Part shown: piece by piece, positions 3,976 to 34,763 of the stretch | Layout of the letters: every line of letters begins with the position of its first letter | Numbering within the stretch: position 1 is the first letter of the stretch | NCBI GenBank assembly: GCA_030613505.1 | Contig: JAUWLW010000032.1 | Location: forward strand, 1-34,763 | Source of the DNA: Candidatus Zixiibacteriota bacterium | GTDB lineage: Bacteria; RBG-13-66-14; B26-G2; WVWN01 | DNA: 34,763 nt | Direction: 5' to 3' | The notes under the pieces: model-generated | Told to the model about the DNA's origin: nothing | Database searches by the model: none | Seen by the model: the letters and a program-made list of their open reading frames with translations, nothing else | Translations under genes and position numbers: made by a program

Positions 3976-4779
3976 TTATTCGAATATGGCCTTAACCTTA
4001 CCGAGCGACGCCGGCTCGACGTCGGTGTAGGAGCAATCGTATACCCAGATGTACTCGTCGGGGGACCCGCCGGACGTACTCACGTAGAGGCGACCTGCGT
4101 GATACGCCACGCCGTAAGGATAGGAAACGGTAGATTTAAGCGGCCACGATTCCCGGACGGAGCCGGCGGACGTCATGCCGACTACCCACCGCGTAGCGTA
4201 ATTCGCGTACCAGATATAGTTGTGGGTATAATCCCAAGCCAAGTCGTAGGCGTAGTTGGTAAACGGCGCCTGGAAGGAAGATATCAAGCTGCCGTTGGTA
4301 TTCGATACCCACCAAATTCCGGTAAGGTAGTTCTGGTAGATGCGGGTGGCCGTTCCGGGGTTCTTCTTGTCGCCGTTGATGCACATGCCGTAACGGCTCG
4401 CGCCGCCGCTCCACCGCCACGAGCTTACCCAGCTCCCGGTGGAGGCGCGGAGCCTCGCCACGTACCGGTTGTTGTAGTTATTTGCGCGGAGGAAGCCGCC
4501 ACCCTCGTAGGAAAGGCCCCTAAGGAAGCGGTTCTCGAGATACGGGAAGCGGACCGGGATCGACTTCACGAAGGACCCGTTCGACCTCCTCAAAATATTA
4601 ATAGGGTAGTTCGTCGTGGCGTCGTAGTGGTAGGAGTAGAGGTAGCTGGCGTCGGCGGCCATGCCGAGGTGGGTAAACCTTCCACGGTTCGGGAAGGAAT
4701 TTACCAGGCTGCCCATCCCGGCCAACGCGGGAGCCGCGGCCGACATAACGCAGGCTATAAGGATTACGCCTTTACGCAT
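3976..4779 (-). CDS. Secreted protein, beta-propeller-like, with the SLGKVKAIF C-terminal tag
   Basis: A 267-residue protein. The start is the ATG at 4779 because AGGAGG lies 10 bases upstream and it opens directly into a signal peptide (MRKGVILIACVMSAAAPALA). An upstream in-frame ATG at 4911 would add 44 residues before the signal. The mature part is rich in Trp, Tyr and Asn with recurring blade-like strands (SYHYDATTNYP, GIWWVSNTNGSLISSF, YIWYANYATRWVVGM, GRLYVSTSGG). This suggests a beta-propeller; no family is recognised. The last residues are VEPASLGKVKAIFE, matching the C-termini of three other secreted proteins in this window. It is monocistronic, with its own terminator. Role unknown; probably exported and possibly surface-located. 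Confidence 0.8.
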   Translation of the reverse strand: MRKGVILIACVMSAAAPALAGMGSLVNSFPNRGRFTHLGMAADASYLYSYHYDATTNYPINILRRSNGSFVKSIPVRFPYLENRFLRGLSYEGGGFLRANNYNNRYVARLRASTGSWVSSWRWSGGASRYGMCINGDKKNPGTATRIYQNYLTGIWWVSNTNGSLISSFQAPFTNYAYDLAWDYTHNYIWYANYATRWVVGMTSAGSVRESWPLKSTVSYPYGVAYHAGRLYVSTSGGSPDEYIWVYDCSYTDVEPASLGKVKAIFE

Positions 4780-4816
4780 ACTTAATTTACCTCCTGAAAC
4801 GTTTGATATGTCATTA

Positions 4817-4845
4817 ATATTAACAGAAATGCCGCCCGTTTCCAA
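4817..4845 (-). promoter_or_regulatory. Candidate sigma70 promoter for 3976-4779
   Basis: On the minus strand, TTGGAA (4845-4840), 17 bases, then TAATAT (4822-4817). Each box matches consensus at four of six bases. The leader would be about 30 bases and contains the AGGAGG. Confidence 0.45.
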
Positions 4846-5000
4846 ATCGTCAAGATAAAACTCGCTACCGTGCCGGCCGCCTATTTGGCTTATCCTCCCC
4901 GTGGCAGACACGTCGGGCCGTTAATGCACGACTGTTTTTAAAACATTGAGCGAAAAAGCAGTGCGAAAAAACCGAAAGGTGATATACACCGCGCGGGGTC

Positions 5001-5963
5001 CTATTCGAACAAGACCCTTATCCGCCCCAAAGATGTCGGCAAGACGGCAGGTTCGGTATATTTATAATATTGAATGCGTTTATTGCCGGTATCGCCTACG
5101 TAGAATCGGTCGCCGCTTTTCGTGAGTGCGACGTCGCGCGGCCGGTTGAATTCGCCTTTTTGGTACCCTTTCGTACCCCAGGAGTCAAGAAACGAGCCGG
5201 TGGACGTGAAGCATTGGATGCGGTGGTTGCCGCTGTCGGCCACGAACACGCTGCCGACCGGGGCGACGGCTATGCCCATGGGGTTTACGAACTCGGCTTC
5301 GCCGGGCCCTTCGCTACCCCACTGGTCGCGGTAAGAGCCTTTCAACGAGAAGTACTGTACGCGGTGGTTGCCGTATTCGGCTACGTAAACTTTACCCGTC
5401 GAATTCACGGCTACGCCGTCGGGGTAGTTGAACTGACCGGGGCCGGACCCTACTTCCCCCCACGAGCCCAAGAAAGAACCGCTCGAGGTAAAATATTGTA
5501 CGCGGTTGTTTCGGTATTCGGTTACGTAGACGCGGCCGTTGGGCGCGATGGCGACGCCGGACGGCCACCGAAATTTGCCGGGGCCGGTCCCATCGTCCCC
5601 CCATTCGCCGACGAACGAGCCGGTGGGGGTGAAATATTGAATGCGGTCGTTACCGGCGTCGACCACGTAGACGCGGCCGCTAGACGCTACCGCTACGTGC
5701 TCGGGGTGGTAGAACTGGCCGTCGCCTTCTCCCGCCTCGCCCCATTTCCTTAAAAACGACCCGTTAGGCGTGAAGTATTTGACGCAATGCAGGTCTTGGT
5801 CTACGACGTATACGTTGCCGTCCACGGGCGAGACGGCGACGCCGGAAATCTCGTCAAAATCGCGGCGCCATTGGCCGCCGTAAACGTACTCCGCAACCGC
5901 CGCGACGTTCGCCAGAGCGAACGTCGCCACCGTTGATATTATAAGTTTTCTCACTGCGTCCAC
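5001..5963 (-). CDS. Secreted NHL-repeat beta-propeller with the SLGRIRVLF C-terminal tag
   Basis: A 320-residue protein starting at GTG (5963); a second in-frame GTG at 5954 would give MRKLIIS..., an equally good signal peptide. After the signal (ending near AAVAE) come six NHL repeats of about 47 residues. Each has the pattern GVAV...G.VYV.D..N.R.QYF...GSF...WG..G...G.F..P, together a full six-bladed propeller. NHL propellers usually bind proteins or ligands. The C-terminus is VLPTSLGRIRVLFE, the shared tag, placed after the last blade and so not part of the propeller fold. A perfect -35 (TTGACA, 6028-6023 on the minus strand) lies upstream but the matching -10 is poor. Confidence 0.88.
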   Translation of the reverse strand: MDAVRKLIISTVATFALANVAAVAEYVYGGQWRRDFDEISGVAVSPVDGNVYVVDQDLHCVKYFTPNGSFLRKWGEAGEGDGQFYHPEHVAVASSGRVYVVDAGNDRIQYFTPTGSFVGEWGDDGTGPGKFRWPSGVAIAPNGRVYVTEYRNNRVQYFTSSGSFLGSWGEVGSGPGQFNYPDGVAVNSTGKVYVAEYGNHRVQYFSLKGSYRDQWGSEGPGEAEFVNPMGIAVAPVGSVFVADSGNHRIQCFTSTGSFLDSWGTKGYQKGEFNRPRDVALTKSGDRFYVGDTGNKRIQYYKYTEPAVLPTSLGRIRVLFE

Positions 5964-6031
5964 TCTTTACCGACCGATAAAACTTTCAATTTCCTATATA
6001 TCTTGTCATATATATGTCGGTTTGTCAAATA

Positions 6032-6056
6032 TAAAGGGGCCACGGGGGCCCCTTTA
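6032..6056 (-). terminator. Rho-independent terminator of the gene at 6077-6742
   Basis: TAAAGGGGCC pairs with GGCCCCTTTA across a 5-base loop, a 10-bp stem. On the minus strand it continues into TTTATATTT. It sits just after the stop at 6077. Confidence 0.8.
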
Positions 6057-6076
6057 TCCGCCTCTGAACCCGGGCG

Positions 6077-6742
6077 TTACTTTTGGTACTGGATAAGGCC
6101 GATGTCGAGCTGGCCGTCGGTGATGAGGAATCCCTCGGTCGGTTCGTACGTCCAGGTGAACGTGGCCTCGTAGTTCTCCGTGTCCACCTCTACTTCAGCG
6201 CCGTACTCGGTCAGGTCGAGGTACTTGGGCGTCGCGATGCCCTCTTCCAGCTTACCCTTTAGACCTTTAGGGTTAACGACGGAACCCCAGAACCCGGGCG
6301 AATTTGCTACCGGTATGAGGTACTCCGGTTTGATGTTGCCCAGTTTGACGCGGTTGGCAACCTGGCCCACGAAAACGACGCGCATCGTTATGGTCGCCTT
6401 ACCTTCGGGGTAGAAGTCCCGGAACTGCGCCAGGCCGACGCAATTCTTACCGACCAGGACCTCCTTAACGACGTTGCCCCAGGTGAAATAGAATTTCGCC
6501 TCGGCGTCGGGCATGTGTTCCGGGTCGAGCCAGTATACCTTGACGTCTTTTTTACCCTGGCCGACCCCGGAACACTTGATATCCATTAGCGGGTTACCGG
6601 CGGTGTCGTTTACGATAGTCTCGAAAGGTTCGCCGTCTCCGGGACCGGAGACCTTCGTCGAAATTATCTTACCGGTATTCTCGCCCGCAAAGGCCGCGGC
6701 GGCCAGCGCGAGCGCCGTCAAACCAACTAGTATCCGCCTCAT
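6077..6742 (-). CDS. Secreted protein of unknown function, no C-terminal tag
   Basis: A 221-residue protein with a clean signal peptide (MRRILVGLTALALAAAAFA) and AGGAGG 7 bases before the ATG. The mature part is beta-rich and moderately charged. It contains two cysteines (KCSGVG and KNCVGLA), which could form a disulfide after export. No family is recognised. Unlike its two secreted neighbours it ends in IGLIQYQK, without the SLG-type tag, so the tag is not a general feature of exported proteins here. A perfect TATAAT lies upstream on the minus strand (6777-6772) without a good -35. It is monocistronic. Confidence 0.8.
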   Translation of the reverse strand: MRRILVGLTALALAAAAFAGENTGKIISTKVSGPGDGEPFETIVNDTAGNPLMDIKCSGVGQGKKDVKVYWLDPEHMPDAEAKFYFTWGNVVKEVLVGKNCVGLAQFRDFYPEGKATITMRVVFVGQVANRVKLGNIKPEYLIPVANSPGFWGSVVNPKGLKGKLEEGIATPKYLDLTEYGAEVEVDTENYEATFTWTYEPTEGFLITDGQLDIGLIQYQK

Positions 6743-6928
6743 ATCGTTTCCTCCTGGATAACAATTAAGGGATTATAACGGTTTCGCTTCGACGTCGACG
6801 GGCATCATACCATAAAGCGGTGCTTCCGTCAAACCGCTACCGCTTACGCCGTAAAGGTAGCGGCGGCGCTCCGGCCGTGTTAAAATAACGTGTATCTTAT
6901 ACCCCCATCGGAACGATAGGAGTTAAGT

Positions 6929-8512
6929 ATGCGTAGACTACTCATCGCGGCGGCGATAGCGCTCGCCGTTTCGGCTACGGCCGCCGAGAAGTACGACCTC
7001 GAGAAGGTCCGGGCCGACAACGAGCGGCTCATCCGGGAATGGTGCCAGGCCGGGTGGGACAACTCGGTCTACGGCAAGCCGGTCGACATTGCCGGCCTGT
7101 TGGAGAAGTACTCGTACCTCTCCGACGACCCGGGGCTGCTGGCTTTTTTGCGCGAGAAATGGACCACGGCCACGAACGCCGTCGAGGCGCGGCGCCTCCA
7201 ATACTTGTATCGCGACCTCGCCACTACGTACGAGGCGAAGCGCGTCGCCGCCATCGCGGACGAGATGGATAACCGCAGCGCCTCGGACCACGTTTGGGTA
7301 AAGGGCTTCGAGAAGCCGGTCGCGGTGCGGGATTTCTACCCCTTGTCGCGCGCCACCGACGACCCCGAAAAATACATGAACCTTTACTACGCCCGGTATA
7401 ATTACTCCATCAACGTCATGAACCCGCTCCGGCGCGAACGCCTCCGCGCGCACCACGAATCGACCCGCGCCGCCGGCTACGACAGCTACAGCGACTTCTA
7501 CTATCAGATGCTCGGCTACGAACCGGGGGTGCCGGCGGCGCAGGCGCGCAAGTTCCGCGACGCGACGTTCCCCACCTACAAAGAGCTCGTGACCGAGAGG
7601 TGCCGGGCGCTGTACGGCAAAGACCCCGCCGACACTCCCCCATGGGAATCGAAAAACATATACTGGGGTAAGGACTTCGACGCGTACTTCCCCAAGGAGA
7701 CGTTCCTCGAGTTCACGTACGGTTTCTTCGCCGGGATCGGCTTGGATATTCGAGACATGCCCAACGTTACCGTGGACGACGCGGACCGGCCCGAGAAAGA
7801 GGCCCGCGCGGCGTGCTGGGGATTCGACGCGCCCTCCGACGTACGCGTCAACCTGAAGCCGGCGGGGGGCGTCAACGACTACGAGGCCGCGTTCCACGAG
7901 TTCGGCCACGCCCTTCACCACGGCAACACCGACGCCGACCTCCCCTACGAGTTCCGCATGTTCGGCTCCAACGAGCTCACCGAGACGTACGCCATCTTCT
8001 TCGAACAGATGTTTAACAACCGCACGTTCCTGGCCGAGGAGCTCGGCATGCCGGAGGAAGTGATCGACGAATTCCTTAAATACAAGCTCATAACGGATAT
8101 GGGTGGGGCGCGCGGCATCGCCTTCGTCGTTTTTTACGACGAGGCGCTGCATTCAGGAAAGCTGGAAGACCCGCTCTCGTACTACGACGCCGAAGCCGAC
8201 AAGCAGCGGCTGTTCCCCAAGTACGCCGTCCGCGTCGAGGCCAATTATTTGGCGGTCGACGAGGGTTTCTACGCGTTGTACTATATGGCGGCTTTCTGCG
8301 CCGCGGCGCAGCTCCGAGCCAAGGTCGTCGAGGAGTTCGGCTCAAGGTGGTACAAAAACCCGGCCGCGGGCGAGTTCTTCAAAAATTTGTTCCGCCGGGG
8401 CGACAGCATAACCGTGACCGAGATGTTGCAGCATACCGGCTACCCTGAGGGTTTGAACCCGGACTATTTAATCGCCGAGTACCGGGCCCGTTACGACGCG
8501 CTTAAGGAGTAA
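6929..8512 (+). CDS. Secreted zinc metallopeptidase, M3/M2-like gluzincin
   Basis: A 527-residue protein with a signal peptide (MRRLLIAAAIALAVSATAA). AGGAG lies 6 bases before the ATG. It is mostly helical. The active site HEFGH is at 323-327 (His323, Glu324, His327); the third zinc ligand is probably Glu349 or Glu352 in the helix NELTETYAIFFE. The arrangement FHEFGHALHH, then a helix with E-T-Y-x-x-F-F-E, resembles oligopeptidases of family M3 and angiotensin-converting-enzyme-like M2 proteins. The length is slightly short of the usual 550-700 residues. It probably degrades peptides in the periplasm. It lies divergent from the secreted gene at 6742, with an intergenic stretch of 186 bases. 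Confidence 0.82.
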   Translation: MRRLLIAAAIALAVSATAAEKYDLEKVRADNERLIREWCQAGWDNSVYGKPVDIAGLLEKYSYLSDDPGLLAFLREKWTTATNAVEARRLQYLYRDLATTYEAKRVAAIADEMDNRSASDHVWVKGFEKPVAVRDFYPLSRATDDPEKYMNLYYARYNYSINVMNPLRRERLRAHHESTRAAGYDSYSDFYYQMLGYEPGVPAAQARKFRDATFPTYKELVTERCRALYGKDPADTPPWESKNIYWGKDFDAYFPKETFLEFTYGFFAGIGLDIRDMPNVTVDDADRPEKEARAACWGFDAPSDVRVNLKPAGGVNDYEAAFHEFGHALHHGNTDADLPYEFRMFGSNELTETYAIFFEQMFNNRTFLAEELGMPEEVIDEFLKYKLITDMGGARGIAFVVFYDEALHSGKLEDPLSYYDAEADKQRLFPKYAVRVEANYLAVDEGFYALYYMAAFCAAAQLRAKVVEEFGSRWYKNPAAGEFFKNLFRRGDSITVTEMLQHTGYPEGLNPDYLIAEYRARYDALKE

Positions 8513-8603
8513 CGTTACGATTCCGGGCGTGACGCGCCGGGCGTTACGGCGCCGCGCCGGACCGCCGTTAGTGCGATCGGCAACGTCCCAACGCCTTTTT
8601 TCG

Positions 8604-8632
8604 TTGACAAGCATATGCTTTGGAGTTAACAT
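8604..8632 (+). promoter_or_regulatory. Sigma70 promoter with palindromic spacer
   Basis: TTGACA (8604-8609), a 17-base spacer, then TAACAT (8627-8632). The spacer begins with the perfect 12-base palindrome AAGCATATGCTT (8609-8620), overlapping the last base of the -35, a typical position for a repressor site. Confidence 0.7.
8609..8620. promoter_or_regulatory. Palindrome, possible operator
   Basis: AAGCATATGCTT is a perfect 12-base inverted repeat within the promoter spacer. No regulator gene is adjacent, so the binding protein is unknown and chance is possible. Confidence 0.4.
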
Positions 8633-8648
8633 TTTTAAGCTAAATATT

Positions 8649-9035
8649 ATGAAACCCACCCTCGACGACCAGATAAAGCGCGAATTCATCGAGTACGTCG
8701 GCGTACCGATGAAGGCCGGCGAAATAACGATCGGTGCCAAGGAAGACGGGACCCCCATAACGCGGCCCTTCGACCTCATCTCCGAAGACCAATCCCTCGT
8801 GGCGTCGGTCCAGACCTCGTGCCTCCACCTCAGGTCGCGCCCGGGGCAGAAGGCGTACGGCAGCCTCTACCGCGTCATGGGCGCCATTCTATACCTTCAC
8901 CTCTGCAATAAATGCAGTGACCGCTACCTTATTATGAGCGACCGGGATATGTACGACGAGATCACCGAGGACTTCAGCAATATCTTCAAAGACATTAAAA
9001 TGCTCTTTTGGGACGATATCAAAAAGCAATCGTAA
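8649..9035 (+). CDS. Small protein of unknown function, 128 residues
   Basis: The ATG at 8649 follows the promoter at 8604-8632, giving a leader of only about 10 bases and no Shine-Dalgarno. An open frame continues upstream to 8529, but that part would overlap the promoter and has poor amino-acid content. The protein is soluble with one hydrophobic stretch (YRVMGAILYLHLC). The segment PFDLISEDQSLVASVQTS has the rhythm of the D...ExK strand pair of PD-(D/E)xK nucleases, but the Glu and Lys positions are Gln and Thr, so any relation would be to an inactive member. No family is firmly recognised. Confidence 0.65.
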   Translation: MKPTLDDQIKREFIEYVGVPMKAGEITIGAKEDGTPITRPFDLISEDQSLVASVQTSCLHLRSRPGQKAYGSLYRVMGAILYLHLCNKCSDRYLIMSDRDMYDEITEDFSNIFKDIKMLFWDDIKKQS

Positions 9036-9125
9036 TCCCCCGCCGCGGCGCCGAAATCGGCCTCCGCGCTCGGCACGAGTCAACCTCTCCATATCCCATA
9101 GCGAACCGTAACGAGGTCTAGCTCC

Positions 9126-14165: not shown

Positions 14166-15278
14166 TTAAATCTCCTTCTCGTAAATCCTATACCTCTTAT
14201 ACGGCCGGCCGCCCAACATCGCCACGGTGCGCTTGGTCAATTCGTTCTCCTCCAGCACCCACGAGAACTCCGCCTCTTCGTAGCCGAGCTCGAGCGCCGC
14301 GCGGTGGTTGGATGCCATTAGGACCGCGTCCATGCCCCGCTTGCGGTACTCCGGGCAGATGCCGAAGAGCATAACGCGGCAGCTCTTTATCCTGCGCTTG
14401 CCCGACAAGAATTTTATCAGGCTCACCGGGCCGGTCGAGCCCCCCATCCTGGCCAGGACCTCGTTGTAATTGGGCACCGTAAAGATGAAGGCCGCCGGAT
14501 CGCCGTTCACGAAGGCGAGGGAGACGAGCTCCGGGACGACGAGGGACTTCAACCGTTGGGCCGTACTGTCGAACTCCTCGCGCGTCGGCGGCACGAAGCC
14601 CCAATTGTACTCCCAGGCGCGGTTGTAGATCTCGCGCACGAGCTGGACCTCGCCGGCGAAGTCGGCGACGTCGACGCAGCGGACCGTCAACCCCGGGTTG
14701 CGCGCTCGCGCCCGGGCGGCGACGCGCTCGACGCGCTCGAGCCGCGCCAGCGAGAGTTCCCAGACGAAAGCGAACAAGTCCCGGCCTTTGCGGAAACCGT
14801 ACTCCTCCGCCAGCGTCGCGTAGTACGGCGGGTTGTGCGTCATCATTATATAGGGGGGGCGGTCGAAACCCTCCACCAAGAACGCGCACTCCTCGTTGGT
14901 GGAGGGGTTCATGGGGCCTATAAATTTGGTTAGACCCCGGCCGCGGAGCCAAGCGGAGGCCGCGTCCCACAGCGCCGCCGCGGCTTCGCCGTCGTCTTCC
15001 GCCTCGAAGAAACCGAAATAACCGCACGGCTCGCCCGCGAATTTTACGTAATCTTCGTCTTTGATGGCGGCGACGCGGCCTACGACCCGCCCCTCCCGGC
15101 GCGCGACGAAAAGCGCCCGCTCGGCGTGATGCCAGAACGGGTTCTTTCCGCTGAACGTAAACTTGACGTCGCGCTTGAGCGGCGGCACCCAGTTGACGTC
15201 GTCGCGGTACAAAAGGTAGGGGAAATCGACGAACGCGTTGAAATCGCGTCGCGAGGCTACCTCCGCTACGTCGACCAC
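14166..15278 (-). CDS. GNAT-like acyltransferase-family protein in the Spt operon
   Basis: A 370-residue soluble protein starting at GTG one base after the stop of the Spt-like gene. A GGGGGGAGAG Shine-Dalgarno lies inside that gene's end, so translation is coupled. The family blocks are FVDFPYLLYRDDVNWVPPL, KNPFWHH, the GNAT-like VVGRVAAI, KFIGPMNPSTNEECAFLVEGF, NPPYYATLAEEYGF and RPYKRYRIYEKEI. Known bacterial ceramide synthesis in Caulobacter uses Spt, a GNAT-type acyltransferase (bCerS) and an epimerase-like reductase (CerR). The gene order here (reductase, Spt, GNAT-like) fits that trio. I therefore infer an N-acyltransferase on a sphingoid-like base; orthology with bCerS itself has not been shown. 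Confidence 0.78.
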   Translation of the reverse strand: MVDVAEVASRRDFNAFVDFPYLLYRDDVNWVPPLKRDVKFTFSGKNPFWHHAERALFVARREGRVVGRVAAIKDEDYVKFAGEPCGYFGFFEAEDDGEAAAALWDAASAWLRGRGLTKFIGPMNPSTNEECAFLVEGFDRPPYIMMTHNPPYYATLAEEYGFRKGRDLFAFVWELSLARLERVERVAARARARNPGLTVRCVDVADFAGEVQLVREIYNRAWEYNWGFVPPTREEFDSTAQRLKSLVVPELVSLAFVNGDPAAFIFTVPNYNEVLARMGGSTGPVSLIKFLSGKRRIKSCRVMLFGICPEYRKRGMDAVLMASNHRAALELGYEEAEFSWVLEENELTKRTVAMLGGRPYKRYRIYEKEI

Positions 15279-15279
15279 G

Positions 15280-16497
15280 CTACACTCTCCCCCCGATAAC
15301 GCCCATCTCGCGGCCGGCCTCGTCGAACGCTTCCACGACGCGGTCGACGTGGTCGCCGGTGTGCGTCGCCATGCAACTCACGCGGATGAGGGCGCGGTTC
15401 TCCGGAACGGCAGGCGTCATAACGGGCGTCGTGAATATCCCCCTGTCGAACAGCTTGCGCCACATCGTCCGCGCGGTGAGGTCGTCGCCGACGATAACGG
15501 GGATGATGGGCGTCGTGCTCTCGCCGGTATCGTAGCCGAGGTTCCGGAAGCCGGCGCGCATTTTTTCGGCCACCTCCATCAGGCGCTCGCGGCGCTCCGG
15601 CTCGTTCTCGATAATATCCAGCGCAGCTATCACAGAGGCCACGTTGGCGGGGGGCAGGCTGGCGGAGAATATCATCGACCGCGCGAAATGCTTGAGGTAA
15701 TGGACGACCGTCTCGGTAGCGGCGACGAAGCCGCCCACGCAGGCGAAGGACTTGCTGAACGTCCCGATTATCATGTCCACCTCTTCGTCAAGGCCGAAAT
15801 GGTCGGCGACGCCGGCGCCCCGCGAACCGAGGACCCCGATGCCGTGCGCGTCGTCGACCAGGACCCGGGCGCCGTACTTCTTCGCCAGCTCTACGATGGC
15901 CGGCAGGTCGCAAACGTCGCCCTCCATGCTGAAGACGCCGTCAACCGCGATGAGGACACCGCCCCCGTCGGCGGGAGATTGCAGGACGCGCTCCAGGTGG
16001 CGCATGTCGTTATGGCGGAAGCGCTTCATGTGGCCGTAGCTCAGCCGGCAGCCGTCGATGATGCTGCCGTGGTCGTACTTGTCGGTTACGATGACGTCGC
16101 CCTTCCCGGCCAGCGCGGAAATGACGCCGAGGTTCGTCTGCATGCCGGTGGAGAAGACGAGCGCCGCCTCCTTGCGGCAAAACTTCGCGAGCCTTTCCTC
16201 CAGCTCTATGTGCAACGTGAGGGTACCGTTCAGGAACCTCGAACCGACGCACCCGACGCCGAACTTCTGCGTCGCTTTGATCGCCGCTTCCTTGAGCTTG
16301 GGGTGGGAGGTCAAACCCAGGTAGTTGTTCGACCCCACCATAATCATCTTGCGCCCCTCGACCATAACCTCGGGGTCCTGGCCCGATTCGATAACGTGGA
16401 AGTACGGGTAAACGCCCGCGGCTATAGCCGCTTTCGCAGTCGTAAACCTCCCGCACTTCTCGAATATATCCGGCCGGTGACGTTGTTGTTCGTTCAT
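15280..16497 (-). CDS. Alpha-oxoamine synthase, serine palmitoyltransferase-like
   Basis: A 405-residue fold-type-I PLP enzyme. The ATG at 16497 (MNEQQRHRP) is preferred. An earlier GTG at 16530 would overlap the upstream gene by 28 bases. Key sites are NNYLGLT (58-64), GSRFLNGT (85-92), DHGS (His143), VDDAHG (Asp215, His218) and the PLP lysine Lys249 in GTFSKS. The sequence is closer to bacterial Spt than to biotin-synthesis BioF or Kbl: GCVGSRFLNGTLTLH and MKRFRHNDMRHLE are typical of Spt. The enzyme would condense an acyl thioester with serine (or glycine or alanine) to give a long-chain ketoamine. Neighbouring genes upstream (5 bases) and downstream (1 base) support a lipid pathway. The substrate amino acid cannot be read from sequence. 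Confidence 0.82.
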   Translation of the reverse strand: MNEQQRHRPDIFEKCGRFTTAKAAIAAGVYPYFHVIESGQDPEVMVEGRKMIMVGSNNYLGLTSHPKLKEAAIKATQKFGVGCVGSRFLNGTLTLHIELEERLAKFCRKEAALVFSTGMQTNLGVISALAGKGDVIVTDKYDHGSIIDGCRLSYGHMKRFRHNDMRHLERVLQSPADGGGVLIAVDGVFSMEGDVCDLPAIVELAKKYGARVLVDDAHGIGVLGSRGAGVADHFGLDEEVDMIIGTFSKSFACVGGFVAATETVVHYLKHFARSMIFSASLPPANVASVIAALDIIENEPERRERLMEVAEKMRAGFRNLGYDTGESTTPIIPVIVGDDLTARTMWRKLFDRGIFTTPVMTPAVPENRALIRVSCMATHTGDHVDRVVEAFDEAGREMGVIGGRV

Positions 16498-16502
16498 AAC
16501 GT

Positions 16503-17480
16503 TTACAACCACCCTTTTTCGCGATACCACGCGGTCGTTAATTTCGCTCCCTCGGCAAACCCGACGCGAGGGATAAAACCCAATTCTTTCCTGGCTTTAC
16601 TTATATCGCACACCCAGAATTCTTCCCACATGACGCGGGCGCGCTCGCGGTTGAGCGTCGCCACCTTCCCGGAAAGGGTGGAGGCGAGCTCCGCAATCGT
16701 CGCCGCCCCGAAGAGGACTACCTTGGGAACGCGAACCGTCCTGGTCTTTACGCCCAACGCCGCGGCCGCCGCGCGCGCTACGCCGCGCCAGTCCCAAACC
16801 TCGTCGTGGGCCACGAAGTACACCTCGCTCCGGACCCTTTTATTACGGCCCGCCAGCAACAACGCGTCCACCACGTCGCCCACGTAACATAGGCTCAAGT
16901 ACCGGTCGTCCCATCCCAACGCCGGCGCGACGCCCTTGTTTATAAATTTGAAGAACAAAAACATCTCCGTATCGCGCGGGCCGTAGACGGCCGAAGGCCT
17001 AATTATAACGAAAGGCAATTCGGCCTCGCGCTTCCGTAGCGCGCGTTCCCCCTCGAGCTTGCTGCGGCCGTAGTGGCTCACGGGGGCGCACTCGTCGGCT
17101 TCGCGGCGGACGCCGTCCGGCCCGCAGGGCCCGGCCGCGGCCTGGCTCGAGACGTATACCAACGACGGCGGCGTGCCCCGCGCCGAACACGCGTCGGCCA
17201 GGTTCGCGGTCCCCTCGGCGTTGACGCGGTACAACGATTCGGCTTTGCGGGCTTTAGTCGCGCCGGCGCAATGGTAGACCACGTCCACGCCGGCTACCGC
17301 CCGGGCCAACGAGCCGTCGTCGTCGAGAGCGCCCGGCGCCTCTTCGTAGTCGAGCCCTTCCAACCAGCGCCGGTCCGACGTAGGCCGAAGCAAACACCTG
17401 ACGTCATCCCCCCTTGAGAGAAGGGCTTCGACGAGGTGGCTCCCGATGAAGCCGTTGGCCCCTGTAACTAATACCTTCAC
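16503..17480 (-). CDS. NAD(P)-dependent epimerase/reductase, CerR-like by context
   Basis: A 325-residue extended SDR protein. The nucleotide-binding motif GANGFIGSH is at 7-15. The catalytic residues are Ser111/Ser112, Tyr137 and Lys141 in HYGRSK. The C-terminal domain contains a hydrophobic stretch (VVLFGAATIAELASTL), as in 3-beta-HSD-like and lipid-modifying members, which fits a membrane-associated lipid substrate. It is the first gene of a tight operon with the Spt-like and GNAT-like genes. By analogy with Caulobacter CerR it could reduce the 3-keto group of an acylated sphingoid base. A sugar or sterol-like substrate remains possible. Confidence 0.75.
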   Translation of the reverse strand: MKVLVTGANGFIGSHLVEALLSRGDDVRCLLRPTSDRRWLEGLDYEEAPGALDDDGSLARAVAGVDVVYHCAGATKARKAESLYRVNAEGTANLADACSARGTPPSLVYVSSQAAAGPCGPDGVRREADECAPVSHYGRSKLEGERALRKREAELPFVIIRPSAVYGPRDTEMFLFFKFINKGVAPALGWDDRYLSLCYVGDVVDALLLAGRNKRVRSEVYFVAHDEVWDWRGVARAAAAALGVKTRTVRVPKVVLFGAATIAELASTLSGKVATLNRERARVMWEEFWVCDISKARKELGFIPRVGFAEGAKLTTAWYREKGWL

Positions 17481-19044: not shown

Positions 19045-19689
19045 CTAATTGAACAACGCCCTGACCCGGCCCAGGCTGGTCGGGTTGACGGCGGGATTGC
19101 CGATCGTAATCCTGGCGAGATGACCCTGGTTCGGCAACAGCTTGCCGGTAGCCCCGGTCGCGTCAAACACGCGAAGCCGGCCCGGCTGGTCGGCAAGGGA
19201 TATGTAGGTCTTCGTAGTAGCCCCGGTGGCGTTGGTCCAGGATATTTCCATCAGCAAGTTGTTCTTGTTGTTGTAGACGAAGTTATCGGGCTCGACGACC
19301 GTGAACCAGTCATTATTCTTGAGGCCTTCCGGCACGGTATACTTCCCTTTGAAGACCTCGACCGGCGTCTTGAAGTCGTAGTTCTTCTTGAAGGTGTTGG
19401 TAAGCTTTTCCTTGCTGGAGTGGCAAAGGATCATCTTGCAACCTTCGAGCGCGGTTGGCGTCGCGCCGCCGGATTCGAATAGGAACTCGATCCGGGCCAC
19501 GTTACCCTTCTCATCTATCTCGAACTGGAACCACATACACTGGAACCGCATCGCCGCGGCGGGCGAATAGAACGGTACGGTATGTCCCTGATCCGCGGAG
19601 CCGCCCACTTCGTGTTCGTTGCCCGTCGCCAACACGTTCCCTGCCGTAGCCAAGGCTAACGCCAATGTAAAGAAAAGCACGTTCCTCAT
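19045..19689 (-). CDS. Secreted beta-rich protein with the SLGRVRALF C-terminal tag
   Basis: A 214-residue protein with a signal peptide (MRNVLFFTLALALATAGNVLA). AGGAGG lies 7 bases before the ATG. The mature part looks like a beta-sandwich (MRFQCMWFQFEIDEKGNVARIEF, MILCHSSKEKLTNTFKKNYD, VEVFKGKYTVPEG, NLLMEISW). I recall this layout from secreted proteins of uncultivated bacteria, but no named family fits. It ends in VNPTSLGRVRALFN, the tag shared with the genes at 3976, 5001 and 34150. It is monocistronic with a good promoter (19752-19780) and a terminator. Function unknown; probably exported. Confidence 0.82.
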   Translation of the reverse strand: MRNVLFFTLALALATAGNVLATGNEHEVGGSADQGHTVPFYSPAAAMRFQCMWFQFEIDEKGNVARIEFLFESGGATPTALEGCKMILCHSSKEKLTNTFKKNYDFKTPVEVFKGKYTVPEGLKNNDWFTVVEPDNFVYNNKNNLLMEISWTNATGATTKTYISLADQPGRLRVFDATGATGKLLPNQGHLARITIGNPAVNPTSLGRVRALFN

Positions 19690-28693: not shown

Positions 28694-30610
28694 ATGGAAA
28701 TGGGCCCGCGCCGTTACATAAAGCGCTTGACAATATTATGCGCAGTGACGTTGGCGGCGGCTGCGCTTGCCGCCGGCGCGCCGCGTTATCTTCCCGGGTG
28801 GCCCGTGACCGGCGGTTCCTACCACGGGTCGTCGCCCGCTGTAGCGGACATCGACGGCGACGGCCGCCGCGAAATCGCGATTGCCGCCTGGGACGGCAAG
28901 CTGAACTTATTCAACTCGCGGGGCCAACTCCTGCCCGGATTCCCGGTCTCGACGGGGACGCGGAGCGGGGAGCGCAACTCGCCCGCACTCGCCGACCTGG
29001 ACGGCGACAAGGTATTGGAAATCGTCCACGTCTCGGCCGACGGCAACATCTACGCCTTCGACCGGCGGGGGATGCCGGTCGCGGGTTGGCCGCAGAAATT
29101 GGCCGCCGGCGCCAAAGGCCCCGCGGTCCAAGACTTCACCAGTTACCGCGGCCTCGAAATATTCGCCGCGGGCGGTACCGGGCTTTACGGCCTCCACGGG
29201 AACGGCACGGCGGTGGGTGGGTGGCCCGTTCCGCTTGAAGGTTCGTCCACGGCCCCGGCGATAGGAGACCTCGACGGCGACCGCCGGCCGGAAGTAGTCG
29301 TCGCGGCCAACCGGCAAATCCACGCCTTTACGACCTCGGGCACTTCGGTCCCGGGCTGGCCGGCGACGGTGGACGGCGAAGTGGTCGGCGCGCCGGTATT
29401 GGCCGACGTAGACGGCGACGACCGAACGGAGGTCCTGGTGGGCACCGCTGCAGGGTCGGCGTACGTCCTCGACGCGGACGGGAGGGTTCGCGCGGGGTGG
29501 CCGCAATCCCTCGGTTCCAAACCCATAACCGCTCCCGCGGCCGTGGGCGACTTAGACGGGCGAGGCGAACTAACGTTGGTATTCGTCGGCGGCGCCACAC
29601 ATATCGGCAGCGCGACGCTCGCGGCCTTCGACGCCGACGGAAGGCCGCGGCCGGGCTTCCCCAAACAGCTGAACCGCACCGTAGCGGCGGCCCCGCTAGT
29701 GGTCGACGCCGACGGCGACGGCCTCCCCGAAATACTACTCGCCACGTATGACGGCTCCCTGTTGGCCTTCGAGAAAAACGGCGCGCTTAGCGACGGGTTC
29801 CCCCTTAAACTCCAAGGCACCGGCATTACCTCCACGCCCGCGGCCGCGGACGTGGACGACGACGGCTTCATGGACATCGTCGTGGCGGCGCAGAACGGCT
29901 ACGTCGAGGTGCTCCGTACCGACGCGGCCTACGACCCTTCCGTCAACCCCTGGCCCATGTACGGCGGCAACCACTGGCGCACCGGCAAATACCTAGCCCT
30001 TACCGGAATACGTCAAACGTTCGTGCTTTCGGCGCGCGGCGGCGGGATTACGATTCGCTGGAAAGCCGACCCGCGTACCGACCGCTCGGGATGGGCCGTC
30101 TTCAAGGGCATAAAAGACGCCGTCAGCGGCAACGTCGTGTACTTCGAGTTGGCGTACGTCGACGAGCAGCCGACGTCCTCGTACAGCTACCGCGACGACA
30201 AAGTGGAAAACGGCCTCATCTATTACTACAAGCTCGAGGAGCGCCTGTCCTCCGGCGGGTCCTACACCTACGGCCCCAAAGCCATACGGGCCGTGGGCGG
30301 GAGCGCGACCAAGGCCAGAAGCACCATCACGAAGTGCTACCCCAATCCGTTCGCGACGCGCGTCAGCATCGCGTACGAAGTGGCGGCCGTCGAAGGGGCG
30401 GAATCCACGACGTCGATAGCGGTATACGATATTTCCGGGAAGCTAATACGCACCCTCGTCGAAGAGGCTAAAGCCCCCGGCAAATACGTCGTAGAGTGGG
30501 ACGGCACCGACAGCCGAGGCGTACCGGTGGCGAGCGGCGTATACCTGACGAGCCTTCGCTCCAGCGAAGCCGCGTCCCCCTCCACGAAGACGCTCGTCCT
30601 CGTGCGTTAA
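28694..30610 (+). CDS. Secreted FG-GAP/VCBS-repeat protein with T9SS/FlgD-like C-terminal domain
   Basis: A 638-residue protein. The start may be at 28694 or the ATG at 28700; neither has a Shine-Dalgarno. A signal peptide (TILCAVTLAAAALAAGA) precedes seven repeats with Ca-binding-loop motifs D-x-D-G-D (or a variant) followed by a strand such as EIAIAAWDG or EVVVAANRQ, and each repeat has a G-W/F-P turn. Together they suggest a seven-bladed, integrin-like propeller. Next comes a fibronectin-like segment, then a C-terminal domain starting YPNPF with VYDISGKLIRTL, WDGTDSRGVPVASGVYL and the terminal TKTLVLVR. This matches type IX secretion (type A) or FlgD-Ig domains. It is probably secreted or surface-attached. 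Confidence 0.85.
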   Translation: MEMGPRRYIKRLTILCAVTLAAAALAAGAPRYLPGWPVTGGSYHGSSPAVADIDGDGRREIAIAAWDGKLNLFNSRGQLLPGFPVSTGTRSGERNSPALADLDGDKVLEIVHVSADGNIYAFDRRGMPVAGWPQKLAAGAKGPAVQDFTSYRGLEIFAAGGTGLYGLHGNGTAVGGWPVPLEGSSTAPAIGDLDGDRRPEVVVAANRQIHAFTTSGTSVPGWPATVDGEVVGAPVLADVDGDDRTEVLVGTAAGSAYVLDADGRVRAGWPQSLGSKPITAPAAVGDLDGRGELTLVFVGGATHIGSATLAAFDADGRPRPGFPKQLNRTVAAAPLVVDADGDGLPEILLATYDGSLLAFEKNGALSDGFPLKLQGTGITSTPAAADVDDDGFMDIVVAAQNGYVEVLRTDAAYDPSVNPWPMYGGNHWRTGKYLALTGIRQTFVLSARGGGITIRWKADPRTDRSGWAVFKGIKDAVSGNVVYFELAYVDEQPTSSYSYRDDKVENGLIYYYKLEERLSSGGSYTYGPKAIRAVGGSATKARSTITKCYPNPFATRVSIAYEVAAVEGAESTTSIAVYDISGKLIRTLVEEAKAPGKYVVEWDGTDSRGVPVASGVYLTSLRSSEAASPSTKTLVLVR

Positions 30611-30636
30611 ACTATAAACCCGAGCGGCGCACGCGA

Positions 30637-30670
30637 AAGGGGCCCCGCGGTGGGGCCCCTTCTTTCTTCT
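30637..30670 (+). terminator. Terminator after the FG-GAP gene
   Basis: AAGGGGCCCC pairs with GGGGCCCCTT across GCGGT, followed by CTTTCTTCTT. It lies between convergent genes. Confidence 0.85.
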
Positions 30671-30691
30671 TCTGCTGCGGCCAGCCGTATC

Positions 30692-32434
30692 TTATTCCTG
30701 ACCGTATTCCGCCTTCCAGGCGTTTATGGCCGTTTCGACCTCTTCTCGTATCGCAGAGCCCGGCGCAAATTTGGGAAGCCAACCCTCGACCGTCTCCACG
30801 ATATCCTTGCTTTTGGGGGACTTGGGCTCGAGCCTGATATACTGCACGTAATGGTAACTCGCCTTTTCCACGTCCTCAAAGATCTTGTACACCGAGGCCA
30901 GGTTATAATGACAGGCCGCGAAGTCGGGTTCGATAGATAAGGACCTTTCGTAGGACGTGACTGCCGCCCGGAGAAGAGATTTCCAATCCGGGCTGTCTCT
31001 GCCCACGAGCCACAACGTATTGCCGAGGGCGTAATAACCGTCTTTGTTCGTGGGCCAGACGGCTATAAACCTATCGTAGCTCTCGCGCGCCTTCTCGTAG
31101 TCGCCGGCGGCGAAATACATCCCGCCCAAGCCGTCGAAGGCGGGCGCGTACGAGGGGTCGACGGCCAGCGCCTCCCGGTAGAAGTACTCCGCCGCTTCCG
31201 TATTCTCCGGCTCTTCTTTGCGCGAGACGGCGGCCAACGCCACCGCGGCGGAGGGATAGTAATCGGCCAGGCCGCGGGACTCCTCGAGTTGCGCCGCGGC
31301 GTCGGCGTACGCTTTCTCCTTCAGGTAAGCCGCGCCCAAACGCAGATGGGCCTCGGCGAATGTGGGGTCCTTGTCGGCGGCGCGCAAAAAGAAGCTGATC
31401 TGCTCGCCGGTGTAGTATCGGGAAGCGCCCTTGGCGAACCACTTGAACGCCTCCATATCCGAGGTCGGTTGGCGCGCGACGTAGCCCGCGGTCTCGGCAC
31501 CCGTCGCCTCGAGCACGAACTTAGCGGCGTCGTCAATTAAAGAGAACAAGTCGTCCACTTCTCCCGCGAATTCCTCGGAGCTCCCTTTCGGGATCACGAC
31601 GACGACCTCCGCTATCCGCTCAGCCTTCTTCTTCATTTCGGCCTGAATTTTCGCCGCGCGGCGTTTTTTCTCGTCGAGAGTTAACGTCGTGCTCGTTAAA
31701 ATTTCGCCTAGCTCGGCGCCGAGCTCGTTCAATTCCTCTACCCGCGCCTTATTCACTTCCACGGCGTACTCGGCGCGGACAATATTCTTTATTTCCCTAC
31801 CGATTTCGGCCATCCGCTTGCCGTTCGCATCCATCTCGGCGCGGATCTCCGCGGCGCGGCCTTTCTTGTCTTCCCAGGCGAGGGAGGGGTCGGTCATAAG
31901 CACCCTCAGCTCCTCGCCCAACGCCGCCAACTCCCGGCCGAGGCTCTTCAGCTCGGCCTTGCTCTTCTCATAGACTCCGAGCTGGGGGACGTGGAGCACT
32001 TCTTCGCCGACGGGCCAAACCCGGACCTTGAAAGAAAGCTCCTCACCCTCCTTGAAAAACGACCCGGCCACGACGTGCGTCACGCCCTCTCGCTTCGCGA
32101 CGTCGCTAACGCCGCCCATCGGCGTATCGGGCGCGAGCTCCATACTGCGGCTTTTCTTGAGGCCGAGCGCCAGGTCCGCACGCGGCACGAGATTGACCGC
32201 GGCGGAGCGCTCGAGCGCCAGCTCCAACACCGCGGGAATGCCGTCGCCCAGCCACGGCATCGGCGCTTCGACGTCGAACGGCATCCCGGGGACGGGGGGC
32301 AGCTCCGCCCCGGCGCCGGGCGATTCGTCGCCAAAAGGCATAAAGGTCAAAGCAGGCCGAGCGGACGCGGGCGCCTCCAGGGCGAAGGCCCAAGCCGCCG
32401 CGACGATTATCGCTAATAAAGTAAAGGCGCGCAT
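30692..32434 (-). CDS. Secreted TolB/FlgO-like domain interrupted by a tandem coiled coil, followed by TPR repeats
   Basis: A 580-residue protein. The start is ATG at 32434, with AGGAGG 4 bases upstream and a signal peptide (MRAFTLLAIIVAAAWAFA). The first part resembles the amino domain of TolB/FlgO-type proteins: LELALERSAAVNLVPRADL, GVTHVVAGSFFKEGEELSFKVRV. That domain appears split by about 110 residues of charged coiled coil with two similar units (DKKGRAAEIRAEM and EKKRRAAKIQAEM). The closing part of the domain (LFSLIDDAAKFVLEATG) follows, then at least five TPR units to the end. It may be a periplasmic scaffold. It does not carry the SLG-type tag. No exact family is recognised. Confidence 0.78.
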   Translation of the reverse strand: MRAFTLLAIIVAAAWAFALEAPASARPALTFMPFGDESPGAGAELPPVPGMPFDVEAPMPWLGDGIPAVLELALERSAAVNLVPRADLALGLKKSRSMELAPDTPMGGVSDVAKREGVTHVVAGSFFKEGEELSFKVRVWPVGEEVLHVPQLGVYEKSKAELKSLGRELAALGEELRVLMTDPSLAWEDKKGRAAEIRAEMDANGKRMAEIGREIKNIVRAEYAVEVNKARVEELNELGAELGEILTSTTLTLDEKKRRAAKIQAEMKKKAERIAEVVVVIPKGSSEEFAGEVDDLFSLIDDAAKFVLEATGAETAGYVARQPTSDMEAFKWFAKGASRYYTGEQISFFLRAADKDPTFAEAHLRLGAAYLKEKAYADAAAQLEESRGLADYYPSAAVALAAVSRKEEPENTEAAEYFYREALAVDPSYAPAFDGLGGMYFAAGDYEKARESYDRFIAVWPTNKDGYYALGNTLWLVGRDSPDWKSLLRAAVTSYERSLSIEPDFAACHYNLASVYKIFEDVEKASYHYVQYIRLEPKSPKSKDIVETVEGWLPKFAPGSAIREEVETAINAWKAEYGQE

Positions 32435-32480
32435 CTTTCCTCCTGCGTTATCTTCTGCGGCATCACACCCCCCTTCATAA

Positions 32481-32508
32481 AGTATAACAAACGCCCGCCG
32501 AAAATCAA
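32481..32508 (-). promoter_or_regulatory. Promoter for the TolB-like/TPR gene
   Basis: On the minus strand, TTGATT (32508-32503), 16 bases, then TATACT (32486-32481). The leader of about 40 bases includes AGGAGG. Confidence 0.55.
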
Positions 32509-32521
32509 GGCGCCGTCTTAA

Positions 32522-32550
32522 AAAACCCCCGCTGCGAGCGGGGGTTTTTC
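32522..32550 (-). terminator. Terminator of the radical SAM gene
   Basis: AAAAACCCCCGCT-GCG-AGCGGGGGTTTTT forms a 13-bp stem just after the stop at 32571. Confidence 0.85.
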
Positions 32551-32570
32551 GTAGCATTGGTACGAGTAAC

Positions 32571-34001
32571 TTAGCGGGCTTTGACCCGTTGCTTTTCCTT
32601 CGACGGCGGCACCCACCCGGTTTGCTCGACCTCGCCGAAGTCGCGGTACGGATCGGCATCCAGTTCGCGGCTGTATTGGTCCACCTCCGCCTCGAATTTT
32701 CCGGCGTAGGCGTCGAGGTCTTCGGCCAGCTCCGTGAGAAGTTTGGCGTTTTCAGGGTACGACGGGCGGCCGCCCCCGAGCTGGACGCACTCCCGCAGTA
32801 CGGACGGATTGTCGATGATGGCGCACGGTCGCCGGAGGTCCTTGCTGAACGGCTGCCTGCTGCGGAACTGGCGGAAGAAGTCACTGCGCAGGCACTCGAC
32901 GAGCGGCTTGTCGCGCACGTTGTCGACCGTAAACTGGGCGAAGACACAGGGCTCGACGTCGCCGTGGACGTTTATGTGGAAGTAGCGCTTCCCACCCATG
33001 ATGCAGCCGTCGACGTGGGGGCCGTCGTTCCAGAAGTCCGCGGCGAAGATGGTCCTGGTCTCGCGGACACGGCGATTGCGCGCGCCCAACGTATAGCGCT
33101 GTTTCGGCGTCGGCATTAGCGACGTATCCGGGTCGCGGCCGATGGGTATGTACGTGAAGTACCACCCCATCGTACAACCCTTACGCTCCACGAAGTCGAT
33201 GAACTCGGGGCTCGTGATGGCGTCGAGGTTGTAGCGGGTGCACGTGGTGCTGAAGCCGTAGCAGATGCCCTCTCTCTTCATGTAGTCGAACGCCTCCGAG
33301 CACTTCTCGAAGACGCCTTCGCCGCGGCGCTTGTCGGTCTCCTCTTTGAGGCCCTCCAGGCTGATGCAGGGAATTAAATTGCCGGTCTTGGCGATGCGCT
33401 TGGCCATCTTCTCGTCGATGAGCGTGCCGTTGGTGTACATCAGGAAAGCTATGTCCGAATGCTTCTCGACGAGGTCCATCATATCGGGGTGGAAGAGCGG
33501 CTCGCCCCCCGAGATGACGATGAAGTGGATGCCCATCTCCTTGGCCTCGGCGAAGATCCGGTCGATGAGCTCCGGCTCCATCTCGTCCTTCTTGGGATAC
33601 TGCGCCGCGTAGCAGCCGGTACAGGTTATATTGCACCGCATCGTCGGCGAGATGACGAACAGCGTCGGCGGGTAGAAACCGATCTCCTCCTCGATCTTGT
33701 GCCGCTTGTCGGCGCCGACGAGGGCCTCTTTGACGACGAGGTTGGTGAGGAGCCGCCGACGCACTTTGGGGTTGAACTCCTTCATGAAGCGCCGGGCGAT
33801 CTCCATTAACGGGTGGTTTATCTCCAGGCGGTACTTGAAGCCCTGAATGGCGTCCACCCACAGCGGGTCGCTGGTTATCTTCTCGCCGAGCTTTATTATG
33901 CGCTTTAAATTTTTATCCGGGTCGCCTTTGGCAGCCAGGTCGGCCATCCGATTAACAGTCTGCTCCAAAGCGAACTCTCGGACTTTGTCTTTAAAGCCCA
34001 T
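32571..34001 (-). CDS. Radical SAM/SPASM-domain protein, unknown substrate
   Basis: A 476-residue cytoplasmic protein with AGGAGG 4 bases before the ATG. The radical SAM motif is Cys123-x3-Cys127-x2-Cys130 (SPTMRCNITCTGCYA), followed by the SAM-binding GGEP (165-168). The C-terminal part has the SPASM-type cysteines (GCIMGG, EPCVF, RPCA, RECV) for one or two auxiliary iron-sulfur clusters. Recurring family blocks include LMYTNGTLIDE, FYPPTLFVISPT and YFTYIPIGRDPDTSLMPTP. I recognise this family from many anaerobes, but its reaction is not established; some relatives mature peptides. No candidate peptide substrate lies beside it. It is monocistronic with its own promoter and terminator. Confidence 0.85.
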   Translation of the reverse strand: MGFKDKVREFALEQTVNRMADLAAKGDPDKNLKRIIKLGEKITSDPLWVDAIQGFKYRLEINHPLMEIARRFMKEFNPKVRRRLLTNLVVKEALVGADKRHKIEEEIGFYPPTLFVISPTMRCNITCTGCYAAQYPKKDEMEPELIDRIFAEAKEMGIHFIVISGGEPLFHPDMMDLVEKHSDIAFLMYTNGTLIDEKMAKRIAKTGNLIPCISLEGLKEETDKRRGEGVFEKCSEAFDYMKREGICYGFSTTCTRYNLDAITSPEFIDFVERKGCTMGWYFTYIPIGRDPDTSLMPTPKQRYTLGARNRRVRETRTIFAADFWNDGPHVDGCIMGGKRYFHINVHGDVEPCVFAQFTVDNVRDKPLVECLRSDFFRQFRSRQPFSKDLRRPCAIIDNPSVLRECVQLGGGRPSYPENAKLLTELAEDLDAYAGKFEAEVDQYSRELDADPYRDFGEVEQTGWVPPSKEKQRVKAR

Positions 34002-34066
34002 GGTTCCTCCTAACGTAAAAGAACGCCTCCGGCCGCTACGCCGGGCGTATTCCTTACTTCGGCGGT

Positions 34067-34095
34067 AGTATAACCAATCGACACAATGAAATCAA
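34067..34095 (-). promoter_or_regulatory. Promoter for the radical SAM gene
   Basis: On the minus strand, TTGATT (34095-34090), 17 bases, then TATACT (34072-34067). Confidence 0.55.
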
Positions 34096-34103
34096 GAGTA
34101 AAA

Positions 34104-34125
34104 AAAGGCGGCCTGAGCCGCCTTT
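34104..34125 (-). terminator. Terminator of the edge gene at 34150
   Basis: AAAGGCGGC-CTGA-GCCGCCTTT forms a 9-bp stem, followed by T's on the minus strand. Confidence 0.85.
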
Positions 34126-34149
34126 CGTAAGCGCTGTTTCGCCGGCCTT

Positions 34150-34763
34150 TCAATAATACAGGCCCTTTATCCGGCCCCACGACGACGGCGCTACGCCCGG
34201 GTACGTCGCCCTCGTCTCCACCACCACCCGCAACATAAGATTGGAATACCCGTACGGACCTTCGAGCGGGGCCCAGGAACCCGAGTAATAGGCCCACGAG
34301 TGGCGGCGGGGCGTTGGGTTCGTATCCACCATCAGCGGGTCGCAATTGGGCCACGGCCGAAACCGCTCGGCTCCGGCGAGGAACGCCGTACGCCCAAGGG
34401 CGAAATCGAGGGAATATTCGTACCAGTTCCAACCGGTTCCCGTCGGCTTGAAAAAGGCGTGGCTGCCGCCCTTGGGCCAAATCCGCGAGGCCGGCACGCC
34501 GCCGCGGAAATCGTACAGAGTTAAGTACATGCCGTCCCATCGGCCGTTGGGCCATTCGTCCGTGGTATAGATGCGAAAACGTTTTACCGAAACGTGGCGG
34601 GTCTTCAGTGTCGCTACGTTAAACTGGTTACCGAAACCGTCCGCGCCGCTACCGCGCGAGTTTAATACGTAAGACGGTTTACCGTTATCCCACTTTAGCT
34701 CAACCTCCACCGCTAACGCCGTGGAAATAAACGTTATCAAAACTAACAGCAATATTTTACGCA
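34150..34763 (-). CDS. Secreted protein with the SWGRIKGLY C-terminal tag, start lost by one base
   Basis: On the minus strand the frame reads (A)TG-CGT-AAA-ATA from base 34763, so the natural start would be ATG with its first base at 34764, just outside the window. This gives about 204 residues and a signal peptide MRKILLLVLITFISTALA. The mature part is beta-rich with many Trp and Tyr (RFRIYTTDEWPNGRWDGMYL, RHSWAYYSGSWAPLEGPYG, NLMLRVVV), like a carbohydrate-binding or adhesive sandwich, but no family is recognised. It ends in VAPSSWGRIKGLYY, a variant of the shared tag with Trp for Leu and Tyr for Phe. It has its own terminator. Confidence 0.78.
   Translation of the reverse strand, partial: RKILLLVLITFISTALAVEVELKWDNGKPSYVLNSRGSGADGFGNQFNVATLKTRHVSVKRFRIYTTDEWPNGRWDGMYLTLYDFRGGVPASRIWPKGGSHAFFKPTGTGWNWYEYSLDFALGRTAFLAGAERFRPWPNCDPLMVDTNPTPRRHSWAYYSGSWAPLEGPYGYSNLMLRVVVETRATYPGVAPSSWGRIKGLYY

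Follow-up and report, generated by a model that had tools for sequence, protein, structure and literature searches.

Why should exported proteins with dissimilar bodies share one short C-terminal ending, and what would read it? The question is raised by contig JAUWLW010000032.1 of a Candidatus Zixiibacteriota bacterium (GenBank assembly GCA_030613505.1; GTDB lineage RBG-13-66-14, B26-G2, WVWN01), taken here at its full length of 34,763 nt as the window and belonging, as contig 53, to a 2.86 Mb genome. An earlier reading of its letters (the original prediction) had described four genes, at 34150, 3976, 5001 and 19045, whose exported products end in a common peptide tag, and had proposed an export, anchoring or assembly signal. 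All four tails were confirmed at these coordinates on the minus strand. The tag is very probably a C-terminal sorting signal on Sec-exported proteins, as indicated by its strict C-terminal position, its attachment to many folds, its positional exchange with the C-terminal domain (CTD) of the type IX secretion system (T9SS) and its occurrence in T9SS-bearing lineages. The tagged genes of the window and their tags are:

3976..4779, minus strand: tagged exported protein resembling a propeller (267 aa, start ATG at 4779); tail DVEPASLGKVKAIFE
3976..4023, minus strand: C-terminal tag of the 3976 gene (final 15 residues plus stop), found by the strict DNA pattern and the genus profile
5001..5963, minus strand: tagged exported NHL-repeat beta-propeller (Pfam NHL, E 2.2e-46); tail AVLPTSLGRIRVLFE
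5001..5048, minus strand: C-terminal tag of the 5001 gene (final 15 residues plus stop), found by the wider DNA pattern
19045..19689, minus strand: tagged exported beta-sandwich protein, 214 aa, of a 17-member family (alignment); tail AVNPTSLGRVRALFN
19045..19092, minus strand: C-terminal tag of the 19045 gene (final 15 residues plus stop), found by the wider DNA pattern and the family alignment
34150..34763, minus strand: exported protein with the tryptophan form of the tag, GVAPSSWGRIKGLYY; the start codon begins 1 base past the contig end
34150..34197, minus strand: C-terminal tag of the 34150 gene (final 15 residues plus stop), found by the strict DNA pattern

Position of the tag and the proteins that carry it

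The likeliest start of the 3976 gene, 4779, gives a protein beginning MRKGVILIACV... and ending in VEPASLGKVKAIFE; the last residues of the 5001 and 19045 products are VLPTSLGRIRVLFE and VNPTSLGRVRALFN. The 34150 product ends in VAPSSWGRIKGLYY, with MRKILLLVLITF as its likely true start, and its homologues within the phylum carry the tag in L, I, F and W forms. The four bodies had been described as dissimilar, which holds for three body families, the two propellers (3976 and 5001) falling into one loose cluster.

A strict DNA pattern that includes the stop codon matches 62 times in the whole genome and a wider pattern finds 165 tails at stop codons, with 0 matches for the reversed pattern in both cases, which excludes chance matches. 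The proposed search of the genome and its relatives returned, along with these tails, dozens to more than 100 signal-peptide proteins of differing fold. In 128 distinct tagged open reading frames (ORFs) of the genus, drawn from sampled genome stretches with a regular expression that fixed part of the motif and permitted 0 to 3 residues past the aromatic, the protein ends exactly one residue past the aromatic (128/128), as it does in the four originally described. The tag is ~15 residues long and in these ORFs its conservation sets in sharply at −15/−14, with the form [AG] V x P [AT] S [L/F/V] G [RK] [VI] K A L [FY] [RK]; before −15 they have nothing in common except family resemblance. The first consensus captured the tag; a better form of it is [AG]-V-x-P-[AT]-S-[LFVW]-G-[RK]-[VI]-K-A-L-[FY]-[RK]. 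Rather than occurring internally at random, the motif is C-terminal 31 times, with one further copy three residues short of the C-terminus and essentially no internal copies. The last 12 residues, which include W/F/Y and basic residues, have a mean net charge of ~+2.4.

In a 620 kb sample of a relative (G005; 611 called genes, 34 of them tagged), a simple script, not SignalP, called a signal peptide in 28/34 tagged and 165/577 untagged genes (p 5e-10), and no tagged gene in this sample was classed as having a membrane segment besides the signal peptide. Masked bases account for two of the six tagged genes lacking a call and a missed start for one; in the other three a signal peptide lies above an in-frame TGA. 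These causes explain all apparent cases of cytoplasmic tag bearers in the sampled genome, leaving no clear cytoplasmic tagged protein there. An in-frame TGA directly after the signal peptide was seen in tagged genes L229:8186, L233:17089, L239:13232, L239:17335 and L028 (contig 56 in the genome of the window), in contexts including CGS-TGA, CGT-TGA and TGA-GSC, and a tRNA-Sec gene (67 bits) lies at C62:50539–50632 in the genome of the window. Judged by sequence, the TGA-interrupted tagged genes look like genes for exported selenoproteins, one possibly related to Omp28.

The tagged bodies form 17 families in the genus and 72 across all loci, instead of sharing one homologous C-terminal domain. 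Pfam and NCBIfam searches with 71 tagged proteins (best 25 of 34 Pfam families) identified NHL, Kelch, lamin-tail (LTD), cohesin, X25, CHRD, laminin B, GDSL lipase, beta-helix, cupredoxin, DNRLRE and choice-of-anchor J domains, the last two being known to bear differing C-terminal signals. One loose propeller cluster comprises 82/303 tagged proteins. Tandem arrays of paralogues are frequent for tagged genes, notably those encoding NHL propellers (L041, L037, L246, L006, L053).

Distribution across lineages and the single-copy Fn3 client

All 14 genomes of the phylum match the tag, with 110 to 174 tails per genome in the genus, ~23 to 26 in three other families and 1 to 7 in the most distant family, for which the reversed control gives as many as 4 and the tail has a W or F form (e.g. 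VEETSWGKIRAMYR and TASDATFGWIKALYR). Elsewhere, too, the tag occurs as S-L-G or S/T-W-G. A W-form scan of 84,980 species, which demanded V at −14 and a restricted last residue and is biased at those positions, has among the matches listed Eisenbacteria, Krumholzibacteriia, Effluviviaceae, Latescibacterota, Zixiibacteriota, Cloacimonadota, Neomarinimicrobiota, Ignavibacteriales, Bacteroidetes, Chlorobiota, Gemmatimonadota and Coatesbacteria (for DNA other than the window, taxa are named as in the record titles). Among these listed matches 77/96 tagged ORFs have a clear signal peptide, most others being cut by the locus end. With all forms counted, 47 tag genomes carry 1 to 120 tails each (1105 summed over the per-genome counts; reversed control 0).

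In a Bacteroidota-type phylum centred on genome G036, a real tag is present in 69/296 genomes, nearly always as one copy of the form TWGSIKA[ML]F[RKQ], whose synonymous codons vary freely. Where examined, its bearer is a protein of ~135 residues consisting of a signal peptide, one Fn3 domain and the tag, as in the single Fn3-tag protein at L314:9024–9416 (tail ...VKRTWGSIKALFR); the cultured Melioribacter roseus appears to carry a single protein of this kind. An alignment of 21 members of this family has a mean column identity of 42%, with W, G, I, K, F and R of the tag invariant, i.e. the tail is conserved far beyond its body. Maf, HIT, EF-G-like, MATE and a sphingolipid-like trio lie beside the Fn3-tag gene with clade-level synteny, and there is no common partner. 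In the window, acyltransferase-like, serine-palmitoyltransferase-like and NAD-epimerase genes are consecutive at 14166–17480, a trio that is 36–51% identical to one near the Fn3-tag gene in L308–L312 and that we take to resemble a bacterial ceramide/sphingolipid cluster.

AlphaFold2 models the Fn3-tag protein as a confident Fn3 fold with a less certain terminal helix (residues 117–128), and the window 19045 protein (mean pLDDT 81) with the tag as a tethered helix (205–213; pLDDT ~50). The hydrophobic moment of the tag is 0.40 at the helix angle and 0.50 at the strand angle, compared with 0.34 for shuffles in both cases. The amphipathic helix originally proposed for the tag is plausible from these models, which draw a low-confidence C-terminal helix in two proteins, but a strong amphipathic helix was rejected, since the helical moment lies slightly above that of shuffles and strand periodicity fits at least as well.

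Relation to the type IX secretion system and to other C-terminal signals

A second kind of ending is found within the window, at a gene that the original prediction had listed as exported and untagged. It does lack the tag; its T9SS type A sorting domain had been missed:

28694..30610, plus strand: exported FG-GAP repeat protein, untagged, whose C-terminal part is a T9SS type A sorting domain (CTD at residues 541–638)

The CTD is supported by FlgD_ig (5.6e-10), TIGR04183 (25 bits; cut-off 23) and a CTD model built here (E 4.7e-24), and represents an alternative C-terminal ending inside the same window as the tagged genes. The genome as a whole has 48 type A CTD matches, a SprA protein (313 bits; cut-off 200), a PorU scoring just below its cut-off (416.5; cut-off 420) and a PorV-family protein (130.6; cut-off 90) whose gene adjoins that of PorU. 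Across the phylum, SprA-like proteins (PF14349) were found in 11/14 genomes and Peptidase_C25 in 14/14, with 23 to 67 type A CTD matches per genome. The tag count per genome, from one to more than 100, does not track CTD number.

Tag and CTD exchange on related bodies. The bodies of 36 tagged proteins are homologous to bodies that end in a CTD instead. One contig (L135) encodes two proteins with 49% identity across 247 residues, of which one finishes in ...SVEHTTWGGVKTLFR and the other, at the corresponding point, in a full CTD; the homologous body extends to ~20 residues before the tagged end. Similarly, the Fn3 domain of the single-copy family matches an Fn3 domain directly preceding a CTD in Coatesbacteria (L251). 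The tag itself is no T9SS domain, as had been predicted: the type A CTD model matches 0/308 tagged ORFs from all loci, and the 79 CTD ORFs found in the same loci overlap the tagged ones in 0 cases. A fragment of the T9SS CTD was rejected as its identity on this zero overlap and the absence of a model match.

Co-occurrence with a fixed secretion gene, anticipated for a genuine signal, was found for T9SS. SprA is present in 46/47 genomes selected for the tag alone and, in the Bacteroidota-type phylum, in 69/69 tag genomes vs 229/296 overall (p 1e-9, uncorrected for descent). SprA thus nearly always accompanies the tag. In the genome of the window the SprA gene adjoins two tagged genes, an adjacency not used as evidence because tagged genes occur about every 17 kb. 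A divergent SprA gene there is followed by TolQ- and TolR-like genes (L218:8811–16796, contig 76), which could possibly encode a motor beside the translocon. PorV/PorQ-family barrels number 6 to 31 per genome, with 27 to 31 in G036 and G059 vs 6 to 15 in the remaining genomes tested.

Unrelated cargo proteins with short terminal peptides are familiar from encapsulins and microcompartments, where a protein groove reads the peptide; that cargo is cytoplasmic, whereas the tagged proteins have signal peptides. Among exported proteins, the closest comparison is the T9SS type A CTD (TIGR04183, PF18962), which likewise lies at the extreme C-terminus of Sec-exported surface-type proteins, in the same genomes and as the alternate ending on the same bodies. 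Both endings usually finish in a hydrophobic run and then one basic residue, the last residue being K/R in 75% of tags (unbiased genus set), 92% of CTDs and 21% of other proteins. However, the type A CTD, an Ig-like domain, spans ~80 residues and has motifs A to E (PMC10202324), while the tag, of ~15 residues, contains S/T-[LW]-G, has K conserved at −5 and is recognised by no CTD model. The short CTDs of Prevotella intermedia, with 43 to 55 residues, three strands and motifs B, D and E (PMC11969387), resemble the tag as a reduced T9SS signal at the C-terminus, and the same paper recalls that secretion and attachment of GFP depended absolutely on the final 22 residues of Hbp35; conservation of the tag begins only at −15 and includes none of motifs B, D and E. 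T9SS CTDs of types A, B and C have been described, type B (PF13585, TIGR04131) having ~100 residues and five motifs (PMC10202324). Types B and C are, like the tag, alternative C-terminal endings, in their case of T9SS cargo, and type B has its own barrel shuttles. Neither type A nor type B (PF13585/TIGR04131) CTD families appear among the NCBIfam matches or the best 25 of 34 Pfam families of the 71 tagged proteins.

PEP-CTERM/exosortase, GlyGly-CTERM/rhombosortase and MYXO-CTERM/myxosortase are short C-terminal signals on unrelated exported proteins that were also found by genome comparison (PMC1569441, PMC3237569, PMC11980579). In these signals a membrane helix and a basic tail accompany the signature, whereas the tag lacks such a helix and its signature is the end of the protein (128/128); the LPXTG motif, membrane helix and basic tail of sortase substrates are likewise missing from the tag sequence profile. 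Both LPXTG and PEP-CTERM had been discounted originally, in agreement with these tails and with the G005 sample. No prior description of the tag was found in Pfam, in NCBIfam models or in the open-access literature searched, consistent with the suggestion that the signal may be undescribed.

What reads the tag

The best reading is that the tag is a new class of C-terminal sorting signal replacing the T9SS CTD, whose place (~80 residues) it would occupy on homologous proteins. The tagged protein would be exported by Sec and its signal peptide removed; its body would fold in the periplasm, with the tag hanging from a flexible tether. A single receptor, requiring the carboxylate at a fixed distance, would then read the free C-terminus, [ST]-[LW]-G-x-[IV]-K-x-[LM]-[FY]-[RK]-COOH, and the protein would be moved to, or retained at, the cell surface. 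The likeliest reader would be an outer-membrane part of T9SS, such as a PorV/PorQ-family barrel. That parts of T9SS, most likely these barrels, read the tag and bring the protein to the surface is a proposal to which we give about an even chance.

Several observations weigh against this. The tag has neither the motifs nor the fold of known CTDs, and carriage of the tagged proteins by T9SS is something that we infer, as are the single reader and the surface location. That tag and CTD never occur on one protein is partly trivial and weak evidence alone, because both require the C-terminus. One genome of 1.7 Mb (G027) has 15 tags and PorV-family proteins and no SprA, though it may be incomplete. 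Conversely, the Bacteroidota-type set includes 229 genomes with SprA, of which 160 have no tag and 69 do, so SprA is not sufficient for the tag, and the association of SprA with the tag is confounded by the common ancestry of the phyla. A search for a conserved neighbour gene that would name a reader found only recurring body families and the clade-level synteny of the Fn3-tag gene. Expansion of the PorV family as the reader was rejected, as copy number does not track tag number within the phylum.

Other readings dispense with T9SS. It is possible, if tentative, that the tag belongs to a separate, undescribed export or surface-anchoring pathway across many FCB-group phyla, with its own receptor and operating beside T9SS, which in Ignavibacteria-like bacteria would be reduced to one Fn3 client. 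The main rival, which we consider somewhat unlikely, is T9SS-independent sorting or anchoring in which the basic hydrophobic segment binds either the surface of a membrane or a receptor of its own in the outer membrane or periplasm, giving the tagged proteins a fate different from that of CTD proteins. The net charge of the tag with its W/F/Y and basic residues, the detached terminal helix drawn by AlphaFold2 in two proteins, the lack of resemblance to any T9SS CTD and the independence of tag number from CTD number would all suit such anchoring, but general membrane binding leaves the one-residue distance from the C-terminus and the fixed Gly and Lys unexplained, the helical moment barely exceeds that of shuffles while strand-like periodicity is higher, and tags are found almost only in SprA genomes.

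The very many copies per genome, the tandem arrays of propellers and sandwiches, the fixed C-terminus and the body families typical of surface coats would instead fit a docking peptide, the free C-terminus plugging after export into a repeated receptor of a surface scaffold, in the way that dockerin binds cohesin, so that a coat or filament is formed. This seems unlikely: no scaffold candidate was found, and the single tagged protein of Ignavibacteria-like genomes is easier to reconcile with a sorting receptor or a fixed component than with a coat. A processing or quality-control mark, recognised by a periplasmic protease that removes the tag or degrades the protein, is very unlikely, given that degradation of more than 100 surface-type proteins makes little sense, that nothing is conserved upstream of −15 and that conservation reaches the last residue; the tag is nonetheless a short, strictly C-terminal peptide, and its small A/G at −15 before V−14 could be a cleavage site. 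Finally, the size of the loose propeller cluster might suggest the end of one inherited domain spread by gene duplication and without signal function. This we regard as scarcely credible: the 72 body families with their differing folds, a tail conserved far above the body and the exchange with CTDs on homologous bodies led to the rejection of one homologous domain as the origin of the tag.

As a sorting signal found on up to ~170 exported proteins per genome and in several mostly uncultured phyla, the tag would make the surface proteome of these bacteria predictable from sequence. It raises the question for T9SS of whether 15 residues can replace an 80-residue folded domain or whether these bacteria have a second route. 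Since Melioribacter roseus is cultured and appears to carry a single tagged protein, this question can be tested at the bench.

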